A DNA stretch of 64,000 nt. Source: Algoriphagus aquimarinus. GTDB taxonomy: Bacteria; Bacteroidota; Bacteroidia; Cytophagales; Cyclobacteriaceae. The position numbers and the translations under genes are program-made. Position 1 is the stretch's first letter. Each line of letters opens with the position of its first letter. Below, in pieces: positions 7,162 through 51,944 of the stretch. The stretch spans positions 62,001-126,000 of the forward strand of contig NZ_VORW01000005.1 in NCBI RefSeq assembly GCF_007997215.1. Reading direction: 5' to 3'. Below the pieces are notes generated by a model. It was not told the origin of the DNA. It worked only from the letters and a program-made list of their open reading frames with translations, and did not search any database.

Positions 7162-10100
7162 CTATTCCCACTCCTTAGTCATGGTACTTAGGAAGCTTAC
7201 TAAGTCTCTAATTTCTCTTTTCGTAAGCAATGCCTTCATATCTGGCATACTAGAAGGTGAGTTTTTACGCTCAGCTATACTAGTATTCATGATTAACGTA
7301 TCTGGCTTAGAACCAACTTTCAAAACTAACCCGTCAGCTTTTTCCTCCATCAGAGTTCCGCTTATAGTAGTACCATTTTTCAATTCTAGTTGAACAAAAC
7401 CGAAACCAGGTGCTAATCTCTTACTTGGGTCAATTAAAGCCTCTAGGAGTTCTGTTTTAGAAGCTCTATTGGCCACACCATTTAAATGCGGTCCTGCCAC
7501 TCCACCCATATCATCGTAACCATGGCAACGGATACATTGAGCAGTTTGATTCTGGAAGAAAATATTCCTACCTGCCCTTACACTACCTCCCTCTAGAGCA
7601 CCACTATAAAGTGCTACTAGATCACCATGGGTTCGCGACTCTTGTACTTTGTCATATTTGGCTCTCAAATCAGTCGATTTCGTAGCATCTATCGCTTCTT
7701 CCAATTCAATCATCACTTCATTTGGCAATTTGTCCTTAGACAAATCATCTAAAAGCGTATTCCAAAGAGGAAGCTCAGCAGACTTGTCAAGATTACCCAA
7801 ACTTAGCAAAGCAGCTTGTTTTTCAGCGGTAGTTCTATTTTGAATTACATCCTGAAGTAAATTCACCATTAAGTCCTGAGAAATATCGGTCTTAGTCAAT
7901 AGATCCAATCCTACTACCCGTACCGCCCTTGATTTATCTTTCATGGCTATTTCAATAGGTCCTGAGATAGTCCCCGGATTCGCATTGGATAATGCCAAAA
8001 TTGCAGCTACACGTACATTTTCTGATTGATCATTCTTCAATAGTGCAATGAGCTTAGCTTCAGCATCAGCAATCTTCAATTTACCTATGGCCTTTACGCT
8101 TGCCTCTCTGATTACTTCATTTTTATCATTCAAAGCACCTAACAGTGTCTCTTTTACGGAAGATTGAATTGGTGCCAGATCTCTTTGTACAGCACCTCTA
8201 TTTCTGCCATCCACACGGTCAAGCACTGAAGGCTTAGCCCAGGTTCCCAAAGTGGCAATTGCTTCTGCTTTCAGAGTTGCATTGACACCAGGCTTGGCTA
8301 TATAAGTCTTCAAGTTGTCCATGGACTTCTGTGTTCCCACACGAAGATTGGCTCCGATTGCTCTTCTGATCAAAGGCTCATTTTCAAAACTGGTAGTCAC
8401 CAATAGATCACCAAGTGCTGGCAAAGCACCTTCGATTGAGAAATCATCGTTGATAGCTCTTGCCGCTTCCGTAACGATGTATTCGTCTTTATCTGCTAAG
8501 AATGCTGTGATTCCTGGATCAGCCATTCTACGAAGTGCCAAAACAGCTCCAAGACGAACAGCATTAGAAGAGTGAGACGCTAACTTGATTATAGGATCTT
8601 TCTTATTGATTCTAGCTAGCGCTAAACTTGCTGCATGTCGCAAAAAGGCATCCTCATCATTATTAGCTTCCAATACACCTATCAAACCGTTAATAGCAGG
8701 CTCGTAAGCGATTCTTCCTAAAGCTTCTGAAGCAAAGAACCTAACACGGATTTCACTGTCTTTCAGCAAGGGTAAAAGTGCATCACCAGCTTTTGCATAC
8801 TTAATATCTCCAAGCCATTTAGCAGCTTGGGCACGAATCTCAGAGTCTTGGTCTTTCAACAAAGGAATCAAAGCATCCGCATAGTCCATTTTGTCCATTC
8901 TAGCCAATTGGCTAATACCGACGATTGCATGAATTCTAGCATACTGATTACCTTTCTTGTTGATAGTAGCCTGAAAAACTTTCGCTCCGTCAGCTCCTCT
9001 TTTAGCTAATTCAAATTGAGCTTTTCTTCTGATTCTCATGTCCTCATCACCAAGATAGCCGCTAAGCGCATCGTCTGTTAAGGTTTTGAAATCAGTTTTC
9101 ATGACCTGTGCAGTGATTTTTCTAGCTTCCCAGCTAGCTCCACCCTCGTCATCAAGTTTCCATACTCTACCGTAATTTTTCGTATTCCAACCTTCTATCC
9201 AGTCAGCAAAATAAAGCGAACCATCAGGTCCAAAGTCCAAGCCCGTTGCCAGTATTCCTGACATAATATTTTCAGTTTGGGACATCTTGAAAGATGCTCC
9301 GTCTTGCTCCAATTTGAATGCGTGGATTCCTGATCTAGCTGGGTTCCCTACAAAAGATGCTACGAAAAAGGTGTTTTTCCACTTCTCTGCTAAAGCAGTC
9401 CCAGGGTTATAAACCATGCCTGTAGGACCATTGATGTAATTCTGAATTGGTGGTGTGATATAAGCTGCCTGACCTTCATATCTTGGCACAAAAAGTCGCT
9501 CATCCATCCACACTTTATAAGTATTATTATCCGGATCACGGTATTTACCAAATTGCCAGTTTGTTCTCCAGCCGGTATCTGAACCGTTAACTAGGTACAC
9601 AAGTCTTTCACTTTCTCCTCCATGATCACCATCATTATCTACAGAGATCAGGTTATTATGAGCATCAAAGGTAAACTCATGTGTATTTCTTACACCCATG
9701 GCGAAGATTTCAAAATCACTTCCATCAGGATTTGCTCTCGCTACTACTCCTCTGTTTGGATATTTCCACTCAGTTCCATCTGGGCCTTTACCATTGAAAC
9801 CTATATCGCCAATCCCCCAGTATATTCTACCATCCGGCCCAACTTCCAGGCCTGACATACCATGTCCTCCAAATCCAATGTGAACACCATATCCATGAGA
9901 AATTGATTCTTTCTCATCCATAATGCCATCACCATTTTTGTCGGTAAGTCTCCAAACATCTGGACCTACACCCACAAACAAGTTATCATCCAGTTTCAGC
10001 AAAGCTCCTGCTACATCCGTAGTCACGTCGTTAAAGTCCTGAACCATCATTTGAGAATAGTCTGCACGACCATCTCCATCTCTGTCTTCCAGTCGGTAAA

Positions 10101-10581
10101 TTTCTTCTCTTTCCACAGTCATATCCCGCCAATCGTGTGAACCATCACCGTTCACATCAGCTAACCAGGTATTTTTGTCAGACATCTCAGGGGAAAGTGT
10201 CTTTTGAAGGAAAGCTCTTTTTTCCGAGATGGTTTGAAGACTTATGGATTCAATTTCCCAATCTTGATGCGCTCTAATATCAAATTCAGAATTTTTCTGA
10301 CGATTGGTACGTGAGTAATACAAGCTGCCATCATCAGTAATCTGAATAGAAATAGGGTCATAGACTAAAGAATCTACCGCCCAAAGCGAAAGTTTGAACC
10401 CGGGACTTAATGTTGGGTTAACCTGACTTTCGGCGGCTTGCACCATTGGAGCAATTTCTTCTTGGGATAGATTACGCTCCCGGAGATCTACTTTCTCTTG
10501 CTTACTACAAGAAAATAGTAGCGGAATAGCGGCAGCCAAAATGATTTTGGCATAGTGTCGTTTTATTTTGGGTTGAGGCAT
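7162..10581 (-). CDS. Lipoprotein with dehydrogenase-like propeller, HEAT repeats and c-type heme domain
   Basis: This large 1139-residue exported protein is of the kind annotated 'PVC-type heme-binding CxxCH protein'. It has a lipoprotein signal ending in LLFSC with Cys25 as lipidation site. Three EF-hand-like calcium loops follow (DVNGDG 142, DRDGDGRAD 166, DKNGDGIMDE 214). A sorbosone/glucose-dehydrogenase-like propeller spans about 190-480 ('GPDGRIYWGIGDIGFNG', 'FGPDGSLYFADWIEGW'), and a long HEAT-repeat array about 500-960. The C-terminal cytochrome domain has CIRCH at 1016-1020 and a likely distal Met in SSMPDM. It probably oxidises a sugar or alcohol at the cell surface and passes electrons through the heme. 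Substrate and cofactor are not readable. It stands alone with its own terminator. Confidence 0.85.
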   Translation of the reverse strand: MPQPKIKRHYAKIILAAAIPLLFSCSKQEKVDLRERNLSQEEIAPMVQAAESQVNPTLSPGFKLSLWAVDSLVYDPISIQITDDGSLYYSRTNRQKNSEFDIRAHQDWEIESISLQTISEKRAFLQKTLSPEMSDKNTWLADVNGDGSHDWRDMTVEREEIYRLEDRDGDGRADYSQMMVQDFNDVTTDVAGALLKLDDNLFVGVGPDVWRLTDKNGDGIMDEKESISHGYGVHIGFGGHGMSGLEVGPDGRIYWGIGDIGFNGKGPDGTEWKYPNRGVVARANPDGSDFEIFAMGVRNTHEFTFDAHNNLISVDNDGDHGGESERLVYLVNGSDTGWRTNWQFGKYRDPDNNTYKVWMDERLFVPRYEGQAAYITPPIQNYINGPTGMVYNPGTALAEKWKNTFFVASFVGNPARSGIHAFKLEQDGASFKMSQTENIMSGILATGLDFGPDGSLYFADWIEGWNTKNYGRVWKLDDEGGASWEARKITAQVMKTDFKTLTDDALSGYLGDEDMRIRRKAQFELAKRGADGAKVFQATINKKGNQYARIHAIVGISQLARMDKMDYADALIPLLKDQDSEIRAQAAKWLGDIKYAKAGDALLPLLKDSEIRVRFFASEALGRIAYEPAINGLIGVLEANNDEDAFLRHAASLALARINKKDPIIKLASHSSNAVRLGAVLALRRMADPGITAFLADKDEYIVTEAARAINDDFSIEGALPALGDLLVTTSFENEPLIRRAIGANLRVGTQKSMDNLKTYIAKPGVNATLKAEAIATLGTWAKPSVLDRVDGRNRGAVQRDLAPIQSSVKETLLGALNDKNEVIREASVKAIGKLKIADAEAKLIALLKNDQSENVRVAAILALSNANPGTISGPIEIAMKDKSRAVRVVGLDLLTKTDISQDLMVNLLQDVIQNRTTAEKQAALLSLGNLDKSAELPLWNTLLDDLSKDKLPNEVMIELEEAIDATKSTDLRAKYDKVQESRTHGDLVALYSGALEGGSVRAGRNIFFQNQTAQCIRCHGYDDMGGVAGPHLNGVANRASKTELLEALIDPSKRLAPGFGFVQLELKNGTTISGTLMEEKADGLVLKVGSKPDTLIMNTSIAERKNSPSSMPDMKALLTKREIRDLVSFLSTMTKEWE

Positions 10582-40018: not shown

Positions 40019-40561
40019 TTATCGACAAACCATCACAAATGCTGGCGGAAGATTTTTTAAAGTGAAGCTGATATTTATTTTCCCAAAGTGCTTCTTGAAT
40101 AAATTCTTCAATAGGTAGGAATAACAGCCCTGAATAAAAGAACCGCTCTGAGTGAGTGCAGATTTACTTTGAGAAAGAATTCGATCCCTTACTTCTGGTG
40201 CAAAAAAGCTAAATGGTAAGCTAGAAAGAACATAATCTGCCTTTCTTCCATCCAAATACTTGTCGATGTTTTCAGCGGAATCGTTGATAATTCTTACGTT
40301 ATCTTGTGGAAACAACTTCTCCATTGAAGTACAAAAAGATTTACTGATCTCAAAAACCAAAAGTTCAGTTTCAGGACTTAATTTATCTACTATTCCCTTA
40401 GTAATACTTCCATCTCCTCCCCCTAATTCAATAATTAATTTGGCGTCTTTAAAATCAACATGGGCAAGCATCTTCTTAACCAATGTTTTAGAACTGAAAG
40501 CTACAGCTCCAGTAGTACTCAAGTTGGTGTATAACTCCAACAACAAATCTGATTTGCTCAT
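40019..40561 (-). CDS. SAM-dependent methyltransferase (phospholipid N-methyltransferase-like)
   Basis: This 180-residue class I methyltransferase has motif I 'IIELGGGDGSITKGI' (near 43-57) and the acidic 'LLVFEISKSFC'. Its 'DYVLSSLPFSFFAPEVRDRIL' corresponds to the 'VSGLPLL' region of PmtA-like enzymes. It could methylate a lipid head group, but rRNA-dimethylase-like relatives have a similar outline. It is the first gene of a minus-strand group with DUF3253, msrA and the DUF6909-like gene. Confidence 0.78.
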   Translation of the reverse strand: MSKSDLLLELYTNLSTTGAVAFSSKTLVKKMLAHVDFKDAKLIIELGGGDGSITKGIVDKLSPETELLVFEISKSFCTSMEKLFPQDNVRIINDSAENIDKYLDGRKADYVLSSLPFSFFAPEVRDRILSQSKSALTQSGSFIQGCYSYLLKNLFKKHFGKINISFTLKNLPPAFVMVCR

Positions 40562-42648: not shown

Positions 42649-43842
42649 TTAATCTTTAAGTTTTTCCTTGTAGGTTTTATCCATAATCTGAGAAAGCAAT
42701 GGATAAAAATAATTCCAATAAAAACTCTCTCTATCAGTAAAATCTGAAACAGTATGCAAGCCTCTCCACAGCATAGGTAATCCTTTAAAGTGGGGAGATC
42801 CCAGTGGATTCTGCATATCTGAGAAATCACCTGCCAAATAATAATATTCACCTTCTCCTACATTCTTGACAACTGCTGCGGGAAAGAAACGAGGTAACCC
42901 CATGCTTCTAAGCTTTTCTTTGCCTATATCAGTTGGATCAATATCGTAGTAGGAAATCACTTGATAATCTCGCTCAATAAGTACTATATCAAACCAATCA
43001 GGATATGGAACAATCTCAGGTAGATTAAATCCATGTTGATTGATCCTTTGCGTGCGGATTTTGGGAGTTCTACCTAAGTACTCCACATCATTGGAAAAAG
43101 CTTCTACGGTACCATCTTCATGCACAAACACAATACCAGGGCCAGATGGCACCCAGGTATTCTGATGCTGATCTATGTATTGTGAAATAAACCATTTTGG
43201 TATATCAGTATTAATAGTAGTATCCATCTCATCAAAATACCGAGCTATCCAGCCAGTCCATTTAAGGCCCATGATATTCTCAAACTCTGTTCTTATTCCT
43301 ACAGGAGTAGGAGAAGCCATGGTATTGAATTCCGCTATGATTGTTTTATGCTGCGCTGCTGCTTCACGTAATAAACTTATATCCCCGCGATTTAAGCCTC
43401 CGTAAATTTTCTTGGATATTTCATCGAATTCAGCTTCCTCAAAATCATCTTCAAAAACACCATAGGTATCAGCAAAGTATAAAACATCAAGACCTGAAGC
43501 CTTTTCTTTTATTTCGCTTTCAGTCAATTCCCTCAAGTCCCTAGGGGTTCCGAATGAAGGGGAATCATTTGGGAAAAAACCAAAGTAGTCCTTGTCTTTT
43601 TTATAATACTGCCCTTCCTTATTCTGAATCTTCATGTGCTCAAAAGCCCAAAAGAGTGTTTGGTGTTCTTGATAAGTATCAGTAGGTACGGTCTTGTCTA
43701 TCACCACAATCTCTATCTCTTTGGCAGGAAACACCATCCATAGCAGATAACTGATCAATGGAATAAGGACCAAAATAAAGACGAAGGGAAAAACCCGACT
43801 AATAAGTAGCTTAAATTCTTCTGTAAAAATTCTTTTCATCAA
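42649..43842 (-). CDS. Membrane-anchored protein of the glycan cluster, unknown type
   Basis: This 397-residue protein has one N-terminal membrane segment (about 15-36, 'VFPFVFILVLIPLISYLLWMVF') and a large periplasmic domain. 'VLYFADTYGVFEDDF', 'AQHKTIIAEFNTMASPTP' and 'RTEFENIMGLKWTGWIARYF' hint at an alpha/beta fold like the amidotransferase-like domains of other polysaccharide clusters, but I do not recognise the family. It overlaps the YaiO gene by 4 bp and is the last gene of the five-gene cluster. A modifying or assembly role for the glycan is inferred from position only. Confidence 0.7.
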   Translation of the reverse strand: MMKRIFTEEFKLLISRVFPFVFILVLIPLISYLLWMVFPAKEIEIVVIDKTVPTDTYQEHQTLFWAFEHMKIQNKEGQYYKKDKDYFGFFPNDSPSFGTPRDLRELTESEIKEKASGLDVLYFADTYGVFEDDFEEAEFDEISKKIYGGLNRGDISLLREAAAQHKTIIAEFNTMASPTPVGIRTEFENIMGLKWTGWIARYFDEMDTTINTDIPKWFISQYIDQHQNTWVPSGPGIVFVHEDGTVEAFSNDVEYLGRTPKIRTQRINQHGFNLPEIVPYPDWFDIVLIERDYQVISYYDIDPTDIGKEKLRSMGLPRFFPAAVVKNVGEGEYYYLAGDFSDMQNPLGSPHFKGLPMLWRGLHTVSDFTDRESFYWNYFYPLLSQIMDKTYKEKLKD

Positions 43843-45074
43843 AATCTATATTCAACACCCATTGAAAAGTTCAAGTTATTTCTAAACCTATCCGGACCAA
43901 GTTCATCACGGCTATAGCCAGTATAACCATAAATCATAAAACGAGGAAGCACCAATTGCTGATAACCAACTCTCGCTCTGTAGGAATTCAGAAGTTGTGT
44001 AGGGTCACGGGTTTCCTCATCAGGAGATACTCCCGAACTCAACTGTACTGAGAAGAAATCCTCTCCTGTTTTGAAGTAATATCTTGCCTGCAAATTGGCA
44101 GAAGTCCCCAAACTATTACCTGTCCCAGGAATTAAGTTACCTCGAAGATTAAACCACCAGTTGCCTATATACTTACCTACTGAAGCAGTGTAAATAGTAG
44201 TTGGATCAGAGAATTTCAGGTACCTAAACCCACCATCTATTTCCCATGCTTTAGGTAAATTATAATAAAGCGATGCTCCAAAACGGAATTGAGGAAAAAA
44301 ACTTGCCGATGATCCACCCACATTCACATATGCGTACATTTTTTCTCCCAGAGATGGATAGGCATCTAGCTCAAACAAGGTCCCATTATCATCAAAACGA
44401 GAAGATTGAGTCACCCTGCCTATAAGTGTTCCGGTAATATCTGTTCGGGTTCTTCCATAAAAAGAGAAAGTATTCCAAGGTGAAATGTCCCCAGCAAAAG
44501 TATCATAATCGTATGTCACTCCCACTGCATTATTTCTTCTCAACCTCTGCAAGGTTTGCATGTAGCTAAGCAGATTATCATTCTTGTAATTTTTTTCAAA
44601 AAGATCTTCTGCTATCTCAAAAGCCTCTTCATACTCTTCTTTGAAATAAAATAATCGAGATTCTTTATAACGAAGGTTATTAGGAAGCGGCTGTCCTAAA
44701 TTCTCCTTAGCCTTGGCCAAAACTTCCTCTGCTCGATCATATTGCTCATCCCAGGATAAATTATCCAAAAAGGCAGAATAGGCATCTTCATAGGTAGGAG
44801 CAGCTATTATCGCCCGCTCCAAGTAAATAGAAGCTGAATCATTTTTACCTTCCCAAGCATAACTTCTGCCTACTAAAATTAAGATATCAGCATAATCCGG
44901 GTATTTGGACAAGGCACGAAAAGCGATCTTCCTACCTTCATAGTATTTCCCATCCAAAATCAAAGTTCTGGCATCTACCAGCAAAACATCTGGATCAAAC
45001 GAGTCCTGCGCCTTGATTCCCATTGAAAAAGCCAGAGAACACATAAGAAGAAAAGCTACTTTTTTCATAATCAA
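43839..45074 (-). CDS. YaiO-type outer membrane beta-barrel with TPR-like N-terminus
   Basis: This 411-residue protein has a signal peptide (about 1-22, ending GIKA), TPR-like repeats (about 25-165, 'LILDGKYYEGRKIAFRALSKYPDYADILILVGRSYAWEG') and a beta-barrel (about 175-411) ending in 'LNFSMGVEYRF' with the terminal Phe of outer membrane proteins. The TPR-barrel layout resembles exporters such as PgaA in reduced size. It overlaps the glycosyltransferase gene upstream and the membrane protein gene downstream by 4 bp each, which suggests it is the exit pore of an exopolysaccharide. Confidence 0.85.
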   Translation of the reverse strand: MIMKKVAFLLMCSLAFSMGIKAQDSFDPDVLLVDARTLILDGKYYEGRKIAFRALSKYPDYADILILVGRSYAWEGKNDSASIYLERAIIAAPTYEDAYSAFLDNLSWDEQYDRAEEVLAKAKENLGQPLPNNLRYKESRLFYFKEEYEEAFEIAEDLFEKNYKNDNLLSYMQTLQRLRRNNAVGVTYDYDTFAGDISPWNTFSFYGRTRTDITGTLIGRVTQSSRFDDNGTLFELDAYPSLGEKMYAYVNVGGSSASFFPQFRFGASLYYNLPKAWEIDGGFRYLKFSDPTTIYTASVGKYIGNWWFNLRGNLIPGTGNSLGTSANLQARYYFKTGEDFFSVQLSSGVSPDEETRDPTQLLNSYRARVGYQQLVLPRFMIYGYTGYSRDELGPDRFRNNLNFSMGVEYRF

Positions 45075-46534
45075 GAATTCAATGTATTAGGCTCAATGTT
45101 CTTTTTGTCTTCTGATTTCTTAAAGCCAGTCCGGATCATATGCCCCCATCCTCCTTTGCCTTTGATAAAGTCCCAGTGGCCTTTGAGACCCCAGAGTACA
45201 ATCTTTGGATGAATTACTAGTGGCTCCAAAAAGGCAGTTACGATAAGCTTATTAAGGTCTTTTTTATCTTTGTAATTATTGTATGAAACCTGCTCATAGA
45301 GGATACTAAATGAGGATACCAGGATCGACAATAAGTACAAAACGATGAATAAAGCTATAAAATAGAAAGCTGAGAAATCACCAATAATTATTAGAGTGAT
45401 GGTATACAGTACACCCAACAGCTCTAGAACTGGCGCCATTTTTTCAAACACACTCCAATAGGGATACGACACTAATCCCATTACACCATAGTTCGGGTTG
45501 AGGGCCGTCACTTTATGAAGTTGAAGTGTTTCTATAGTACCACGTATCCAGCGATTTCTCTGTCTAGATAAAATTTCCTCACTCTCAGGCACCTCTGTCC
45601 AGCAAAGTGGATCAGGTACAAAAGATACTCTATAAGGAATATTTCTCTCTTCCATATGGCGACGCATACGCACCACCAGCTCCATGTCCTCGCCTACAGT
45701 CTTTGGGAAATAGCCTCCTACTTCCACTACAAGGTCGCGCTTGAAAAATCCAAATGCCCCAGAGATTAACATCAATCCATTAATTCTAGTCCAAGCCATT
45801 CTTCCCATCAAAAAGGCTCTACAATATTCGATGACCTGGAATTTACCTAAAAGTGTGGTAGGAACTCGGTAATTAGTCACCGTACCATCCACCACATCAC
45901 AATTGTTGGCAATACCAATCACTCCACCTACGGCAATGACTTTACGATTGGTCTCCTCCATAAATGGCCTTACCATACGGGTGATAGACTCATGAGAAAG
46001 AATGCAATCCACATCTATACAGGCCAATATCTCCTTGCTAGAAACATTGATACCAGCATTCAGTGCATCCGCCTTTCCTCCGTTTTCTTTGTCAATCACA
46101 ACCAATCGATTATAGGAGCGATTTTTTGATTTGTAAATCCCTCTGACTGGTTTTGCTTCAATTTCCTCATGGTATGCAAAATCAGTTAGCTGCAATTCGA
46201 AGGCATTGATGAGTTTAGTAAGCGTTTCATCTTTTGACCCATCGTTAATCACAATCACTTCAAACTTTCCATAATGAAGAGAAAGTAAGCTTTTAACATT
46301 TTGCACGATGGATTCACCTTCATTATAGGCTGGTGCCAAAATAGAAACCCCTGGAGCTAAGGGTGAAGTAATGATATCCTGATAGTCTGCAAACCTATTC
46401 TTTCTACGATGATCACGCATTTCCATTGCGCTGAGAATCATAATCAGCATATAAAGCACGATCACAGAAAAGCTGAGGACAAGAAAAATAAATCCTAGAA
46501 TTTCTAAAATAAGATAAAATAAAAAACTATACAT
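45071..46534 (-). CDS. Processive family 2 glycosyltransferase (PgaC/cellulose-synthase-like)
   Basis: This 487-residue membrane enzyme has an N-terminal hydrophobic segment (about 5-35), a catalytic domain with 'VIVINDGSKDET', 'CIDVDCILSHE', 'GEDMELVVRMRR' and 'RQRNRWIRGT' (the Q..RW motif of processive enzymes), and two or more C-terminal membrane helices (about 365-420). It lacks a PilZ domain. It probably polymerises a beta-linked polysaccharide and threads it through the inner membrane. It overlaps the HEAT gene upstream by 8 bp. Confidence 0.9.
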   Translation of the reverse strand: MYSFLFYLILEILGFIFLVLSFSVIVLYMLIMILSAMEMRDHRRKNRFADYQDIITSPLAPGVSILAPAYNEGESIVQNVKSLLSLHYGKFEVIVINDGSKDETLTKLINAFELQLTDFAYHEEIEAKPVRGIYKSKNRSYNRLVVIDKENGGKADALNAGINVSSKEILACIDVDCILSHESITRMVRPFMEETNRKVIAVGGVIGIANNCDVVDGTVTNYRVPTTLLGKFQVIEYCRAFLMGRMAWTRINGLMLISGAFGFFKRDLVVEVGGYFPKTVGEDMELVVRMRRHMEERNIPYRVSFVPDPLCWTEVPESEEILSRQRNRWIRGTIETLQLHKVTALNPNYGVMGLVSYPYWSVFEKMAPVLELLGVLYTITLIIIGDFSAFYFIALFIVLYLLSILVSSFSILYEQVSYNNYKDKKDLNKLIVTAFLEPLVIHPKIVLWGLKGHWDFIKGKGGWGHMIRTGFKKSEDKKNIEPNTLNS

Positions 46535-48086
46535 CTTGTAGTAAGGAGTCTGATAAGTGCATACTAATTCTCATTACCTCCGGATTCTCACTTTCATTAA
46601 TAAACTGATTATAAACCGCTGCATCGAGATTCTGCAAGCTATTCAACAAGACCATTTTTAGCCTAAACTCAGGTGCTTTATTTAATAATTCACAAATAAT
46701 CTTGGCAGAAGTAGCATCACCTATTGCTCCTGCAGCCTTGGCTGCTACTGATACTAATGCTATGTTTTCAGACTTCAAACTACCATTGATCAATTCAGTA
46801 TGTGCCGGAACCCCCAAATATTCGAATGTTTTGATAATCTCAATTTTCTCCTCTTCGGTAACAGAACCTGACTTCTCCTCCAAGGTTTCCAAGAGATCTA
46901 CCCGACCAATCACCCGGACAAGTTTATATCCAAATAGCCTGATACTTTGATTTCTAGAGTCAAAGAGCATTTCAATATGAAGTTCACGCGTAGTATGAAG
47001 AAACTTGATGATCCTCAAATAATTCATCTGCTGCCAACGGGAAAGTGGAAAAGTCTGATCACGCAGAAAAGATAGATCCACACTGTCTGAAAGTGTCAGA
47101 ATCGTAGCTACAGCTTGAGAGCGCACATAGAAATTAGGAGAATTGATATGCTGCTTTACCGCATATATAGCTTCCGTCAAATCCATTTCATTGACCTCAA
47201 CTAATCCGGTGACTACCGTATCCCATTTGGAACTTTTAAGCTTTTTGAGGGAAGACTTGTCAAGATCCAACCTTTTGTAAAGAGCTTTAAGCATAAGCTT
47301 AAAATCACCTTTCATCGTTTTGTTCAACGCAAGTATTCTCTCAACGAGCACTTGAACATAGAAAGGCTTTTTAAGTTGCTTGGCAGGGAAATAGCCGTTT
47401 AGCTCCTCATCACTTAGGGATTCTAATTCTTCTAGCGTTTTTTCAAACAATATTTCAGAAAGTGGTGCTACAATTTGCTCATCGTATAATACCAGTAATT
47501 TTTCCTTCTGATTTCTTCTTGCTTTAAATATCAACATAAAGAGGATCATGCTGAATGCGAAAATGAAGAAAAGTAAAATGACAAGGCTAACTGCAAAAAT
47601 TTTAATCTCACTAAAATAGGCATAGGTGCCTTTAAGAAAAGGAGAATACTTATTTCTAGAAGCAAGGGAGATTAAATCCTTACCATTAGAATCCCCTGCA
47701 ACAGTAGGCTCTATATCGCCATTTCTAAGAAGGTTTGAAACGTACTCTTGAGTAGCTTTGAATGTATTCGGATCACTATAGATCAAATATTGTATTTCCA
47801 AATCGTATTCATACGATCGTAAAACACTATCCTTCAGCCTAAGGGCAGTTGCAAAATCGCGAACTATACCCGATTGAAGAGATCTGTTGAGGGCACTATC
47901 CAAGATATAAGCTTTAGAAGAATCCACTAAACGGAATTGCAACCCTGGAATTTTACCTTGACTCTTTAAAAAATTGGCAAATGAAACAGAATCAGCAAAG
48001 ACAGGTTCATCCTGCCCCAAAACAATATCTGTTTTGATAATCAAAAACAGCAAGGACACAAGTGCAACTGCGTTTTTAACTTTCAT
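46527..48086 (-). CDS. Membrane protein with cytoplasmic HEAT repeats
   Basis: This 519-residue protein has a signal peptide (about 1-24), a periplasmic segment (about 25-160), one membrane helix (about 162-187) and a cytoplasmic HEAT-like helical array (about 205-515, 'LEEKSGSVTEEEKIEIIKTFEYLG', 'VSVAAKAAGAIGDATSAKIICELL'). It is the second gene of the cluster, 4 bp after the receiver gene, and overlaps the glycosyltransferase. It could scaffold the synthase and receive the signal from the receiver protein; this is inference. Confidence 0.78.
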   Translation of the reverse strand: MKVKNAVALVSLLFLIIKTDIVLGQDEPVFADSVSFANFLKSQGKIPGLQFRLVDSSKAYILDSALNRSLQSGIVRDFATALRLKDSVLRSYEYDLEIQYLIYSDPNTFKATQEYVSNLLRNGDIEPTVAGDSNGKDLISLASRNKYSPFLKGTYAYFSEIKIFAVSLVILLFFIFAFSMILFMLIFKARRNQKEKLLVLYDEQIVAPLSEILFEKTLEELESLSDEELNGYFPAKQLKKPFYVQVLVERILALNKTMKGDFKLMLKALYKRLDLDKSSLKKLKSSKWDTVVTGLVEVNEMDLTEAIYAVKQHINSPNFYVRSQAVATILTLSDSVDLSFLRDQTFPLSRWQQMNYLRIIKFLHTTRELHIEMLFDSRNQSIRLFGYKLVRVIGRVDLLETLEEKSGSVTEEEKIEIIKTFEYLGVPAHTELINGSLKSENIALVSVAAKAAGAIGDATSAKIICELLNKAPEFRLKMVLLNSLQNLDAAVYNQFINESENPEVMRISMHLSDSLLQDV

Positions 48087-48090
48087 GAAT

Positions 48091-48453
48091 TTAAGACTTA
48101 AGAATACGCTTTACACGAATTGCTAATTCATTTGGATTGAATGGCTTAGGGATAAAATCTGATACCCCTAAATTGAATGCTTCCAAAACTATTTTTTCTT
48201 CCTCTCCCAATGAACTTAGGACTATAATAGGAACTTCAGGTTTTGTCTTTCTGGCATGGTGAATGATTTCGATTCCATTTTTGAATGGCATCATCACATC
48301 TGTGATTATCAGGTCAAGCGTTTCTGTATCGATAGCTGTTATACCTGCATTACCATCTTTTACTAATACAGTATCATATCCATCCTTCTTTAGACGGAAT
48401 TGAACTAGACTAGAGATAAGCAAATCATCTTCGATGATTAGGATTTTTTTCAT
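48091..48453 (-). CDS. Single-domain response regulator
   Basis: This 120-residue CheY-like receiver has the acidic pair Asp9-Asp10, phospho-acceptor Asp52 in 'LDLIITDVMMPFKNG', a Ser switch in 'IIVLSSLGEEE' and Lys in 'FIPKPFNP'. It has no output domain. It is the first gene of the exopolysaccharide-type cluster, with a -7-like TATCTTTG 24 bp upstream. No histidine kinase is nearby. It likely controls the membrane HEAT protein or synthase directly. Confidence 0.9.
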   Translation of the reverse strand: MKKILIIEDDLLISSLVQFRLKKDGYDTVLVKDGNAGITAIDTETLDLIITDVMMPFKNGIEIIHHARKTKPEVPIIVLSSLGEEEKIVLEAFNLGVSDFIPKPFNPNELAIRVKRILKS

Positions 48454-48476
48454 TATTCGTCGGGTGACACTTGGCT

Positions 48477-48484
48477 CAAAGATA
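48477..48484 (-). promoter_or_regulatory. -7 box of the exopolysaccharide-type cluster
   Basis: On the minus strand TATCTTTG matches TAnnTTTG and lies 24 bp before the receiver ATG. No TTTG was found at the proper -33 spacing, so the call is tentative. Confidence 0.4.
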
Positions 48485-48766
48485 GTATCTATAAGCTAAT
48501 TACATACCCCTAATACCAATCAAATAAAATCATATTAAAAAGAAGAGTTTTTGTGTTGACAAAACAGTATTTCAAACTCAACATCTTGCCATTGGTCAAA
48601 TAATGAGTCGCAAAAAAAAAATCTAAATGGATAAAGAAAACCCTTTTATTAGCTTGCTTATCAAAATATAAACCAAATACGATGAGGAGATTGAATATTT
48701 ATTGAAGTCCATATGGGCATTTTTCAGTGTTAAATCATCCACATTATTTAAAACCATTTCAACCTT
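48485..48766. other. Divergent intergenic region
   Basis: About 280 bp between the exopolysaccharide-type cluster and the amidohydrolase operon. It is AT-rich, and I see no ORF or repeat. Confidence 0.45.
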
Positions 48767-50464
48767 ATGAAAAAAAATCTACTGCATGCAGGTGTGTTTT
48801 GTTTGCTGGTTGCAGGATGGCTTTCTTCCACCTTGGCTTATGCGCAAAGCGACCCATCTGGAAAGAAACGAATCACTGATACCTATGCAATCACAAATGC
48901 AACTGTTTTCACAGCTCCTGGCCAAGCCGGGGTCAAAGCTACCGTCCTCATTAAGAACGGATTAATACAAGGAGTAGGAACAAACCTCACACTTCCTAAA
49001 GAAGCGAAACTAATTGCCGGTGACTCCTTATTTATATACCCTGGCTTTATTGATGGTGCCGGTGATGTAGGAATCACCAAACCAAAGGATCCTGAAAAGC
49101 CAGAAAACTTTGTTTCTTCAAATCCTCCTGATGAAATCGCAGGAATTACCCCTTGGAGATCAGCCACCGATCAGTTTTCTCTCAAAGACAGCAAAGTTGA
49201 CGATCTAAGAAAGGTTGGATTTACGATAGTTCAGATTATGCCTGATGGCGGTATGATTGCGGGCAAAGCAGCTATTGTGCTGTTAGGTTCTGAGAACTCC
49301 ACCAATTTATTGGTAGATAACTCTGGCTTGGCGGCTAGTTTCAGAGCTTCTAGAGGAATGTATCCAGGCACTGCAGTAGGTGTTATGGCAAAATTCAGAG
49401 AGGTATATGACAATACTAAGCTGACTTCCCAGAGATCGCAAAAATACACTACAGTAGCTGGCCTAAAGCGCCCAGAGATCACACCTACTTATTCTGCTAT
49501 GGAAGAAGTAGTAGCAGGTAAGATTCCTGTACTCTTTTCCGCATCATCAGAGTTGGAAATCCGAAGAGCCATTAGCCTTCAAAAAGAAAAAGGCTTCAAA
49601 CTAGTTTTGACTGGTCTGGAAGAATACGAAGAAGTTTTGGATGTGATCAAAGCTTCAGGAGCTGGAGTATTGGTCAAACTGGAAATTCCGGATGATAAGG
49701 CAATCAAAGCACAAAAAGAAGATGCCAAGGATGAAGTAAAGGAGCTTAATGCACGCGTTAAAAAAGCCTATGACAATGCACTTGCACAAGCGGGTAAATT
49801 GGAAGCTGCCGGAATTCCTTTCGCATTCACTACTTCAGGAGTGAAATCAGGAGATATCATGAAAGCTATGAGAACAATGATAGCAAATGGTCTTTCAGAA
49901 AAAGCGGCCCTTGCAGCCTTGACTACTAATGCAGCAGCAATTTTGGGAATCAATAAAGTTGCCGGATCAATTGAGAAAGGTAAAATAGCAAACTTGATTA
50001 TGAGTACTGATTCTATTTTCGCAGAAGACTCACAGATCAAGCATGTAGTAGTAGATGGATTCGTCTTCGATTATGAGACAAAAGCGAAAAAGAAAGCTCC
50101 AAAAGACGGTGAAGGAAAAGGAGCAGTGAAAATTGAAGGAAACTGGGATTACACTTCTGAAAGCCCTGCAGGCTCAGGTTCTGGAGTACTATCTATTCAA
50201 AAAGATGGCTCAAACTATACAGGATCTATCACTTACGATGACCCATCAGGTTCTGGTAAGGCATCCTCTCCTATCAAAAATGTAGTGTTGGATGGAAGCA
50301 CCTTATCATTTTCATTCAATATTTCAGCAAATGAAATGGTCATCACGGTAGACGTAAAAGGTGAAGTTAGCGAAGGAAGCTATGAAGCCTCTATGACTGT
50401 TGGCGAATTTGGATCATTTCCATTCGAAGGCACACTCAATCCAACTCTAATCGCTAACAAGTAA
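48767..50464 (+). CDS. Amidohydrolase-like exported protein lacking HxH (first of three)
   Basis: This 565-residue protein has a signal peptide (about 1-27, ending LAYAQ) and the amidohydrolase fold to about residue 440, ending in the typical 'VAGSIEKGKIANLIMSTDSIF'. The metal motif that normally reads PGxIDxHxH is here 'YPGFIDGAGDVG' (91-102), so both histidines are replaced (Ala98, Asp100). No other His-rich metal sites are visible. An added C-terminal beta domain (about 450-565) has Ser/Gly-rich strands. It is probably inactive as a metal hydrolase and may bind a ligand or assist the next gene, which starts 94 bp later. Confidence 0.8.
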   Translation: MKKNLLHAGVFCLLVAGWLSSTLAYAQSDPSGKKRITDTYAITNATVFTAPGQAGVKATVLIKNGLIQGVGTNLTLPKEAKLIAGDSLFIYPGFIDGAGDVGITKPKDPEKPENFVSSNPPDEIAGITPWRSATDQFSLKDSKVDDLRKVGFTIVQIMPDGGMIAGKAAIVLLGSENSTNLLVDNSGLAASFRASRGMYPGTAVGVMAKFREVYDNTKLTSQRSQKYTTVAGLKRPEITPTYSAMEEVVAGKIPVLFSASSELEIRRAISLQKEKGFKLVLTGLEEYEEVLDVIKASGAGVLVKLEIPDDKAIKAQKEDAKDEVKELNARVKKAYDNALAQAGKLEAAGIPFAFTTSGVKSGDIMKAMRTMIANGLSEKAALAALTTNAAAILGINKVAGSIEKGKIANLIMSTDSIFAEDSQIKHVVVDGFVFDYETKAKKKAPKDGEGKGAVKIEGNWDYTSESPAGSGSGVLSIQKDGSNYTGSITYDDPSGSGKASSPIKNVVLDGSTLSFSFNISANEMVITVDVKGEVSEGSYEASMTVGEFGSFPFEGTLNPTLIANK

Positions 50465-50468
50465 AGAC

Positions 50469-50558
50469 ATGAAATCGAACATGACACACGCGACAAAAAG
50501 GAGGATGATTATAAGCTATGTGAGATTCCATGTGGCCTTAAAATCTAATTGCAAACAC
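50469..50558 (+). repeat. Dispersed extragenic repeat, copy C
   Basis: ATGAAATCGAAC, GATGATTATA, TGTGAGATTCC and TGGCCTTAAAA occur in family order with nearly the same spacing as copy A. It ends at the start codon of the middle amidohydrolase gene (50559). Its 5' bases would form a false in-frame N-terminal extension of that gene. Confidence 0.8.
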
Positions 50559-51944
50559 ATGAAAAAAGTAAATTATTTTCTTGCCGTTCTGTTGGGTCTG
50601 AGTATTCAGTTTGCCTCAGCCCAAGTGAAAAAAGGCAGTGTATTAATAAAGAACGCTACCGTTCTTACAGTTACAAAGGGAACGTTGGAGAATTCAGATG
50701 TTCTTGTTCAAGATGGTATCATCAAGAAAGTCGGCCAAAATCTAAGTGCTCCATCAGGAGTACAGACTATAGACGCTACTGGTAAGTATGTAATGCCAGG
50801 AATCATAGATGCTCACTCTCACCTAGGTTTGGATGTGGTAAATGAAGCCACTTCCCCTATCGTGGCTGAAGTGAGAATGAAGGATATGGTGAATCCATAT
50901 GAAGTTGGTATATATCGTGCATTAGCTGGTGGAGTTACTATCTCACATGCTATGCACGGATCTGCCAATGTGATTGGAGGGCAAAACGCTACGCTGAAAC
51001 ATAGATGGGGATCTACTGATCCTGCAGACATCATTATGCAAGATGCTCCCCGTACAATCAAATTCGCTTTGGGTGAAAACCCAACGAGAGTTCACGGAAG
51101 AGGAAATGGTATCCAACCGCGTACGAGAATGGGTGTTGAGGCAGTTCTTAGAAATGGTTTCAATGAAGCTATTCAATACAAGAAAGCTTGGAGCGAATAC
51201 AATGCAGCTGCATCTCAGAAAAACAGTACAGCTCTTCCTCCTGTTCACAATGAAAGACTTCAGGTCCTTTCAGACATTATAGATGGAAAGATCATCATTC
51301 ACTGTCACTCGTACCGTGCAGATGAGATCTACATGCTGATCAATGTTGCCAGAGACTTTGGTATCACCAAACTAGTTTTCCAGCACACAAACGAAGGTTT
51401 CAAAGTGGCTCCGGAAATCGCGGAATACACCATGGGGGCTTCAGTATTTGCTGACTGGTGGGCATATAAGATGGAAGTATATTATTCCACTGCTTACAAT
51501 GCTGCTATCCTAACAGCAAATGGCGCTATCACTTCTATCAATTCCGATGATGCTGAGTTGATCCGTCACCTCTACCATGAAGCTGCAAAAACTCAGCGCT
51601 ATGGTGGAATGACTGACGATCAGGCATTGTCAATGATTACTATTAATCCAGCCAAGCAATTGGGAATCGCGGATAAGGTGGGCTCAATTGAGGAAGGTAA
51701 GCAAGCTGATTTGGTGATTTTCGAAGGTCATCCTTTATCCTCTTATACTATTCCCCAAATGACCTTTGTAGATGGGGTGAAATATTTCGATATCAAGGAA
51801 GATGCGAATGATCAGCGATTGAAAGTGAGTGCTACAGAGATGGTAGAACCTATCATGATCTTTGAAGGTCACGATAGCAGATGTATGCAGGATACTGAGA
51901 GTCTATTCGAGACTACAGAGGCACTATTCAATTTAAATCATTAA
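50559..51944 (+). CDS. Metal-dependent amidohydrolase, exported (second of three)
   Basis: The start at 50559 gives 461 residues with a clean signal peptide ('KKVNYFLAVLLGLSIQFASA'); the upstream in-frame ATG at 50469 lies within the repeat. The metal motif is complete ('MPGIIDAHSHLG', His86 and His88), with further ligands in 'IIHCHSYRADEI', 'VFQHTNEGF' and 'INSDDAE'. It is of the imidazolonepropionase/prolidase-like amidohydrolase type and probably cleaves a small peptide or cyclic amide in the periplasm. The third amidohydrolase follows after 21 bp. Confidence 0.88.
   Translation: MKKVNYFLAVLLGLSIQFASAQVKKGSVLIKNATVLTVTKGTLENSDVLVQDGIIKKVGQNLSAPSGVQTIDATGKYVMPGIIDAHSHLGLDVVNEATSPIVAEVRMKDMVNPYEVGIYRALAGGVTISHAMHGSANVIGGQNATLKHRWGSTDPADIIMQDAPRTIKFALGENPTRVHGRGNGIQPRTRMGVEAVLRNGFNEAIQYKKAWSEYNAAASQKNSTALPPVHNERLQVLSDIIDGKIIIHCHSYRADEIYMLINVARDFGITKLVFQHTNEGFKVAPEIAEYTMGASVFADWWAYKMEVYYSTAYNAAILTANGAITSINSDDAELIRHLYHEAAKTQRYGGMTDDQALSMITINPAKQLGIADKVGSIEEGKQADLVIFEGHPLSSYTIPQMTFVDGVKYFDIKEDANDQRLKVSATEMVEPIMIFEGHDSRCMQDTESLFETTEALFNLNH

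Follow-up and report, generated by a model that had tools for sequence, protein, structure and literature searches.

The 64,000-nucleotide window analysed here (Algoriphagus aquimarinus, NCBI RefSeq assembly GCF_007997215.1, contig NZ_VORW01000005.1, positions 62,001 to 126,000) harbours a candidate polysaccharide-synthase cluster of five minus-strand genes, in which adjacent genes overlap or sit no more than 4 bases apart. Since all five open reading frames lie on the minus strand, transcription runs receiver-first, i.e. from a stand-alone response-regulator receiver (RR) through a membrane HEAT protein, a processive family-2 glycosyltransferase (GT2) and a TPR/YaiO β-barrel protein to a membrane-anchored periplasmic protein, here termed PERI, with spacings of +4 bases between RR and HEAT, -8 between HEAT and GT2, a few bases between GT2 and YaiO, and an overlap between YaiO and PERI. 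A preliminary description, made from the sequence alone, had already noted this tight packing and named the first four proteins, and in both respects our data agree with it: all open reading frames are present with gaps of at most 4 bases, and the Pfam and NCBIfam matches support the four identities. Outside the coordinates considered there, convergent with PERI and with 2 bases between the gene ends, lies a gene for an LtaS/OpgB-like membrane phosphotransferase (table 1).

Table 1. Genes and features of the cluster, with positions in the window and the evidence for each.
Feature	Position	Strand	Evidence
Stand-alone receiver (RR), 120 amino acids	48091..48453	-	Pfam Response_reg 9.7e-25
Membrane HEAT protein	46527..48086	-	HEAT_2 1.4e-07, AlphaFold model, transmembrane segments
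Processive family-2 glycosyltransferase (GT2), 487 amino acids	45071..46534	-	Glycos_transf_2 4.4e-21
TPR + YaiO outer-membrane β-barrel, 409 amino acids from ATG, candidate pore	about 43839..45068	-	PF19413 4.4e-63, TIGR04390 1.6e-60
PERI, membrane-anchored periplasmic protein	about 42649..43839	-	AlphaFold, structure matches, invariant residues
LtaS/OpgB-like membrane phosphotransferase, 667 amino acids	40643..42646	+	PF00884, relatives, PDB matches, co-occurrence with GT2
Intergenic region 5' of the receiver gene, common to the divergent amidohydrolase-like gene; presumed promoter region	48454..48766	.	Open reading frame layout

The polymerase itself is readily recognized. GT2 contains NDGS, DVD, GEDM and QRNRW, i.e. 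the motif set of processive synthases (D, DxD, (G/T)ED, QxxRW), residues D98, D174, D176, E282, D283 and the QxxRW motif are more than 95% conserved in 164 sequences, and membrane segments are found at both the N- and the C-terminal end. TPR matches together with PF19413/TIGR04390 give the YaiO protein a periplasmic TPR part and an outer-membrane barrel; searching solved structures by sequence with GT2 and YaiO gave no more than short stretches matching GT2 or TPR structures. As had been proposed, the genes are laid out like those of a synthase-dependent secretion system. Very long TPR-YaiO proteins occur in loci L116 and L207, and in L207, L208, L210 and L211 a tandem GT2 pair of this subfamily follows one receiver-HEAT pair and precedes a very long TPR-YaiO protein.

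How firmly these genes belong together can be judged from other genomes. In an evenly drawn sample of 390 Bacteroidota genomes, a profile of the GT2 subfamily (E<=1e-60) detected members in 93. Among 71 loci that were picked by GT2 alone and had sufficient flank, HEAT lies within 5 kb of GT2 in every case; in 68 it is the gene immediately 5' of GT2 and has the same orientation, usually at a spacing of -8 to +12 bases; a second, mixed set (70/74 loci) carries less weight because it was partly selected by HEAT or PERI. The reverse search with HEAT alone found GT2 adjoining HEAT in all 20 neighbourhoods inspected. A census of 138 GT2 loci that had 4 kb or more of flanking sequence yielded HEAT in 134, the receiver in 119, YaiO in 96, a hybrid kinase in 50, an LtaS-like gene in 43, a DUF4838 gene in 19 and PERI in 17. 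The system is also found in Bacillota (Paenibacillus, Clostridium, Rossellomorea), Pseudomonadota, Bdellovibrionota, Gemmatimonadota, Acidobacteriota, Fidelibacterota, Rhodothermota and Balneolota; receiver and HEAT thus recur next to the synthase in about ten bacterial phyla, some of the non-Bacteroidota records being metagenome bins with possibly erroneous taxonomy. The five-gene order is conserved within the genus (19/19 loci with full context), but farther out only HEAT-GT2, usually together with RR, stays fixed, and YaiO, PERI and the LtaS-like part shift, fuse or drop out. The constant core is receiver-HEAT-GT2, combined with variable extracytoplasmic parts, as would be expected if the latter are matched to different polymers. 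Another subtype (L117, L118, L120, L125, L126, L156 and others) has, next to YaiO, a DUF4838 protein of roughly 740 amino acids. Overall, we consider it very probable that all these parts make up one system.

Within the core, the receivers form an almost closed, dedicated lineage. A tree was built from 124 cluster receivers together with 25 receiver domains of hybrid kinases and 29 further receivers encoded in this genome; its deep forks are poorly resolved. On it, the cluster receivers required 4 label changes against a shuffled mean of 46.7 (0/500 shuffles as low), and the window receiver falls among cluster receivers from other genera, away from the other receivers of its own genome. Together with the HEAT-GT2 adjacency seen in both search directions, this sustains the reading of receiver and HEAT as dedicated partners of the synthase. 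The phospho-acceptor D52, the acidic pair E8/D9 and K103 are invariant across 21 cluster receivers, and most Bacteroidota cluster receivers are too short to include a DNA-binding domain. The HEAT protein consists of a signal peptide (residues 3-25), a periplasmic part (26-155), a transmembrane segment (155-191) and a cytoplasmic α-solenoid (218-518). In the AlphaFold model, the solenoid (mostly pLDDT >90) and a long transmembrane helix stand out, with structure comparison revealing a resemblance to HEAT/alphaRep solenoids; the periplasmic N-terminal part, which is mostly limited to close relatives, is poorly predicted. Receiver, HEAT solenoid and GT2 active site share the cytoplasmic side, which fits what gating needs. 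In other loci, hybrid kinases with a C-terminal Hpt domain (HisKA-HATPase-REC-Hpt) often adjoin the receiver.

The absence of PilZ and other cyclic di-GMP (c-di-GMP) parts, also noted previously, holds genome-wide: the genome (5.16 Mb, 100% complete) has no PilZ domain, be it in the cluster proteins (Pfam and NCBIfam) or elsewhere, and encodes one GGDEF protein and one YaiO. It does not hold for all relatives, however: two Bacillaceae loci have a receiver-GGDEF fusion 5' of HEAT-GT2-PERI (L224:7266-8873 (+) and L240:7341-8939 (+)), a hint that this adaptor may have a link to c-di-GMP metabolism as well.

The convergent LtaS-like gene belongs to the system as a sixth part, so that the five-gene boundary drawn previously has to be changed. 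Its product, a member of the Sulfatase clan (PF00884), combines a polytopic N-terminus with an extracytoplasmic domain of alkaline-phosphatase fold, has VP1736 and LtaS (4uoo/2w5q) as nearest relatives in the PDB and features candidate catalytic residues E284, T324, D518 and H519, assigned by motif, not structure; the formylglycine motif of sulfatases (C/S-x-P-x-R) is absent from the window protein. In Flavobacteriaceae, a relative (36% identity over 565 amino acids) sits between GT2 and YaiO, and in eight loci the C-terminus of GT2 is fused to an LtaS-like part (31% identity over 662 amino acids to one fusion). These fusions are stronger evidence than co-occurrence in the genus, where both LtaS-like and PERI are found in 22 of 23 genomes with GT2 and in none of 13 without it. 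The search found neither in the lone exception, G031, whose assembly is highly fragmented. Even after relocation the gene is retained: in G014 it is on another contig, and in G613 an LtaS-like-PERI-YaiO block lies 550 kb from GT2 on the same contig. Moreover, 42 of the 43 loci having LtaS-like also have YaiO. That the enzyme puts a phospho-substituent on the polymer seems to us an evenly balanced proposition.

PERI, previously listed as unrecognized, indeed has no family match in Pfam or NCBIfam and retrieved nothing from solved structures by sequence; yet a fold of the GATase1/ThuA/OST48 kind and a widespread family can be recognized. An AlphaFold model built from eight diverse sequences (pTM 0.82) predicts an N-terminal transmembrane anchor (8-40) and a periplasmic class-I-glutamine-amidotransferase-like domain (41-396) with the overall flavodoxin-like GATase1 fold. 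The closest folds are a GH42 middle domain, GATase1-like and ThuA-like proteins (VIA Z 13-15.6; root-mean-square deviation about 3 across 190-220 residues, at about 10% identity), and a human oligosaccharyltransferase complex subunit, which we take to be OST48, also matches (Z 13.8). No conserved nucleophilic cysteine was found in 21 sequences compared, and D, E, N, W and Y are frequent among the conserved residues. PERI is read here as a putative glycan-binding or guiding domain; it might instead hold a new catalytic site. Of 241 genomes belonging to the order, 16 yielded PERI in profile searches, and it also occurs in other classes and in Bacillaceae, in or with this system wherever the context is readable. 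In one locus (L224:11325-14591 (+)), PERI is fused to an extra ~670 amino acids that match nothing in Pfam, and after it come a further receiver and a hybrid kinase.

With a probability of roughly 0.6, we interpret the cluster as a synthase-dependent extracellular-polysaccharide machine that is switched by a two-component receiver, not by PilZ/c-di-GMP, and that includes a phospho-substitution step in the periplasm. A sensor kinase, acting in trans in this genome and often represented by the neighbouring hybrid kinase elsewhere, would phosphorylate the stand-alone receiver, which could then dock on the cytoplasmic α-solenoid of HEAT; HEAT, seated on GT2, would switch polymerization on or off. 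GT2 would build a β-linked chain and thread it across the inner membrane, the PERI domain may bind or guide this chain within the periplasm, the LtaS/OpgB-like enzyme would decorate it with the head group of a phospholipid, either glycerol-phosphate or ethanolamine-phosphate, and the TPR/YaiO barrel would finally carry it across the outer membrane. The components of this scheme differ in strength: that the system makes and exports a polysaccharide is in our view probable, whereas gating of the synthase by the receiver via HEAT is a proposal that we favour only slightly.

Several observations weigh against this interpretation. On the regulatory side, the receiver has no kinase gene beside it here, no REC-HEAT fusion was found, and another target of the receiver is conceivable, e.g. 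transcription via a partner. With regard to export, YaiO is not near GT2 in 42 of the 138 loci, and its function as the pore is an assumption from barrel and position. In addition, the surrounding genes are kept in the genus just as well as the cluster, so that genus-level gene order alone proves little, and the PERI fold match at about 10% identity, itself based on a predicted model, indicates no function. Concerning the LtaS-like part, about 6 of 50 sequences deviate at the putative catalytic residues; several Bacteroidota loci have D for E284 and other letters at T324/D518, perhaps with altered or lost activity. Its association with PERI is not significant in a phylogeny-aware test (median p 0.125), nor is that with DUF4838 (median p 1). 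Furthermore, 12 of the 13 GT2-less genomes of the genus are small, partly incomplete and maybe close kin. These twelve (G002, G003, G005-G008, G011-G013, G020, G027 and G035; 2.2-2.8 Mb, the other genomes of the genus having 3.3-6.3 Mb) are without the whole system and look like a reduced lineage. The absences in the genus thus partly represent shared ancestry and constitute support, not proof, of the LtaS-like link.

An important alternative is that the same polysaccharide machine operates without receiver and HEAT gating the synthase. The receiver would then steer some other step, for instance transcription via a partner or placement at a pole or at the gliding machinery, and HEAT would act as a chaperone in the assembly of GT2 or of the exporter. 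HEAT is bound to GT2 more strictly than RR (134 versus 119 of 138 loci) and may therefore function without RR; the lack of REC-HEAT fusions and the genus-specific periplasmic domain of HEAT point in the same direction. This is difficult to reconcile, however, with a dedicated receiver lineage with an intact phospho-site, with the cytoplasmic location of both HEAT solenoid and receiver and with cluster receivers mostly too short for DNA binding, and we regard it as unlikely, though to be taken seriously.

Somewhat less probable still is that the product stays periplasmic or surface-bound, like osmoregulated periplasmic glucans or a teichoic-acid-like polymer, with YaiO as a surface scaffold that secretes nothing. 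The OpgH/OpgB glucan pathway has the same parts list of a membrane GT2 plus an LtaS/OpgB-family phosphoglycerol transferase, and the nearest solved relatives of the LtaS-like enzyme, VP1736 and LtaS, would suit such a product. In contrast to the osmoregulated glucan system (opgGH + opgB), however, the cluster includes an outer-membrane barrel, a receiver and HEAT, and has no OpgG among its six genes. LtaS itself shares the superfamily and the candidate E, T, D, H site, but here the partner is a GT2, lipoteichoic acid is not known from the Gram-negative group to which the host belongs, and the substrate is presumably a glycan. Against a retained product, the TPR-YaiO barrel found by GT2 in 96/138 loci resembles the TPR-barrel exporters of poly-N-acetylglucosamine (PNAG) and cellulose systems, and Bacillota loci are without YaiO, as expected in the absence of an outer membrane.

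That the cluster is simply a diverged PNAG (pgaABCD/icaADBC) system appears improbable. An inner-membrane processive GT2, a TPR plus outer-membrane barrel protein reminiscent of PgaA next to PgaC, and the operon layout are common to both, and the top NCBIfam match of GT2 is PgaC_IcaA, but at 148 bits against a cut-off of 422. Pfam and NCBIfam reveal neither a PgaB/IcaB-type deacetylase domain in the six proteins nor a PgaD-like part; receiver and HEAT take the place of c-di-GMP binding, and the GATase-like PERI has no counterpart there. The tested defining features of PNAG systems and of PilZ control are thus not found. Cellulose systems (bcsABZC, bcsG) likewise have a processive GT2, a periplasmic partner, a TPR barrel exporter and a polymer-decorating enzyme of the alkaline-phosphatase superfamily, BcsG, which adds phosphoethanolamine to cellulose. 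By contrast, the present cluster has no PilZ, BcsB or GH8, and its decorating enzyme is LtaS/OpgB-like (BcsG profile E=0.17). The YaiO barrel family is shared with yaiO-yaiP(-yaiS) of E. coli, the only one of 14 control genomes with PF19413; yaiO has a GT2 gene as neighbour there, and none of its neighbours is known to encode a receiver or HEAT protein. The cluster fits no named family that could be tested, and a search confined to open-access papers found no description of a receiver/HEAT/GT2/YaiO combination, in line with the earlier statement that no named system of this composition was known. Rubrivivax EmbRS/psc clusters were rejected for their Wzx/Wzy-type genes and LuxR-type regulator, and the HEAT genes of an iron-stimulon paper as unrelated; Xanthomonas xagABCD, a GT2 biofilm operon, is set apart by its description, relatives in iron oxidizers having a BcsB-like protein and no HEAT or receiver being mentioned. 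In all, the earlier interpretation is partly supported.

Finally, it is improbable that the LtaS-like gene encodes an unrelated, merely adjacent phospholipid or sulfate-ester enzyme, as might be argued from its convergent position outside the operon, from the ornithine-lipid-methyltransferase-like gene divergent on its other side and from genome G051, which holds a relative without the GT2 subfamily, since its relatives are fused to GT2 or located between GT2 and YaiO in other families, it co-occurs with GT2 in the genus (22/23 versus 0/13) even after relocation, and YaiO is present in all but one of its loci.

To return to the proposed receiver-switched synthase, its subfamily is found in about a quarter of the Bacteroidota genomes sampled and, in a scattered fashion, in about ten other phyla, mostly with a receiver and HEAT of its own. 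If our interpretation is true, phospho-relay signalling would directly gate glycan polymerization in organisms almost devoid of c-di-GMP signalling. The interpretation also predicts a new exopolymer, probably carrying phosphate, that could matter for biofilm formation, gliding surfaces, phage reception or aggregate formation. The GATase-like membrane family and the LtaS-like family also gain functional context. More tentatively, and at somewhat less than even odds, the system may represent a pan-bacterial class of synthases in which a phosphorylated receiver gates the enzyme post-translationally via a membrane α-solenoid adaptor, doing by two-component signalling what PilZ/c-di-GMP gating does elsewhere. 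Exchangeable modules outside the cytoplasm (LtaS-like, PERI, DUF4838, YaiO) would then define different polymers, the one here bearing phosphoglycerol or phosphoethanolamine.

As to the surroundings of the cluster, a 1139-amino-acid open reading frame at 7162-10581 (-) has a weak HEAT-profile match (40 bits) at 7801-8895 and apparently no relation to it. The methyltransferase gene at 40019-40561 (-), divergent from the LtaS-like gene and retained next to it in most loci of the genus, encodes a protein that resembles the ornithine-lipid N-methyltransferase OlsG (83 bits, under the cut-off of 350). At the opposite end, two tandem amidohydrolase-like genes (48767-51944 (+)) diverge from the receiver gene and are kept with it throughout the genus.

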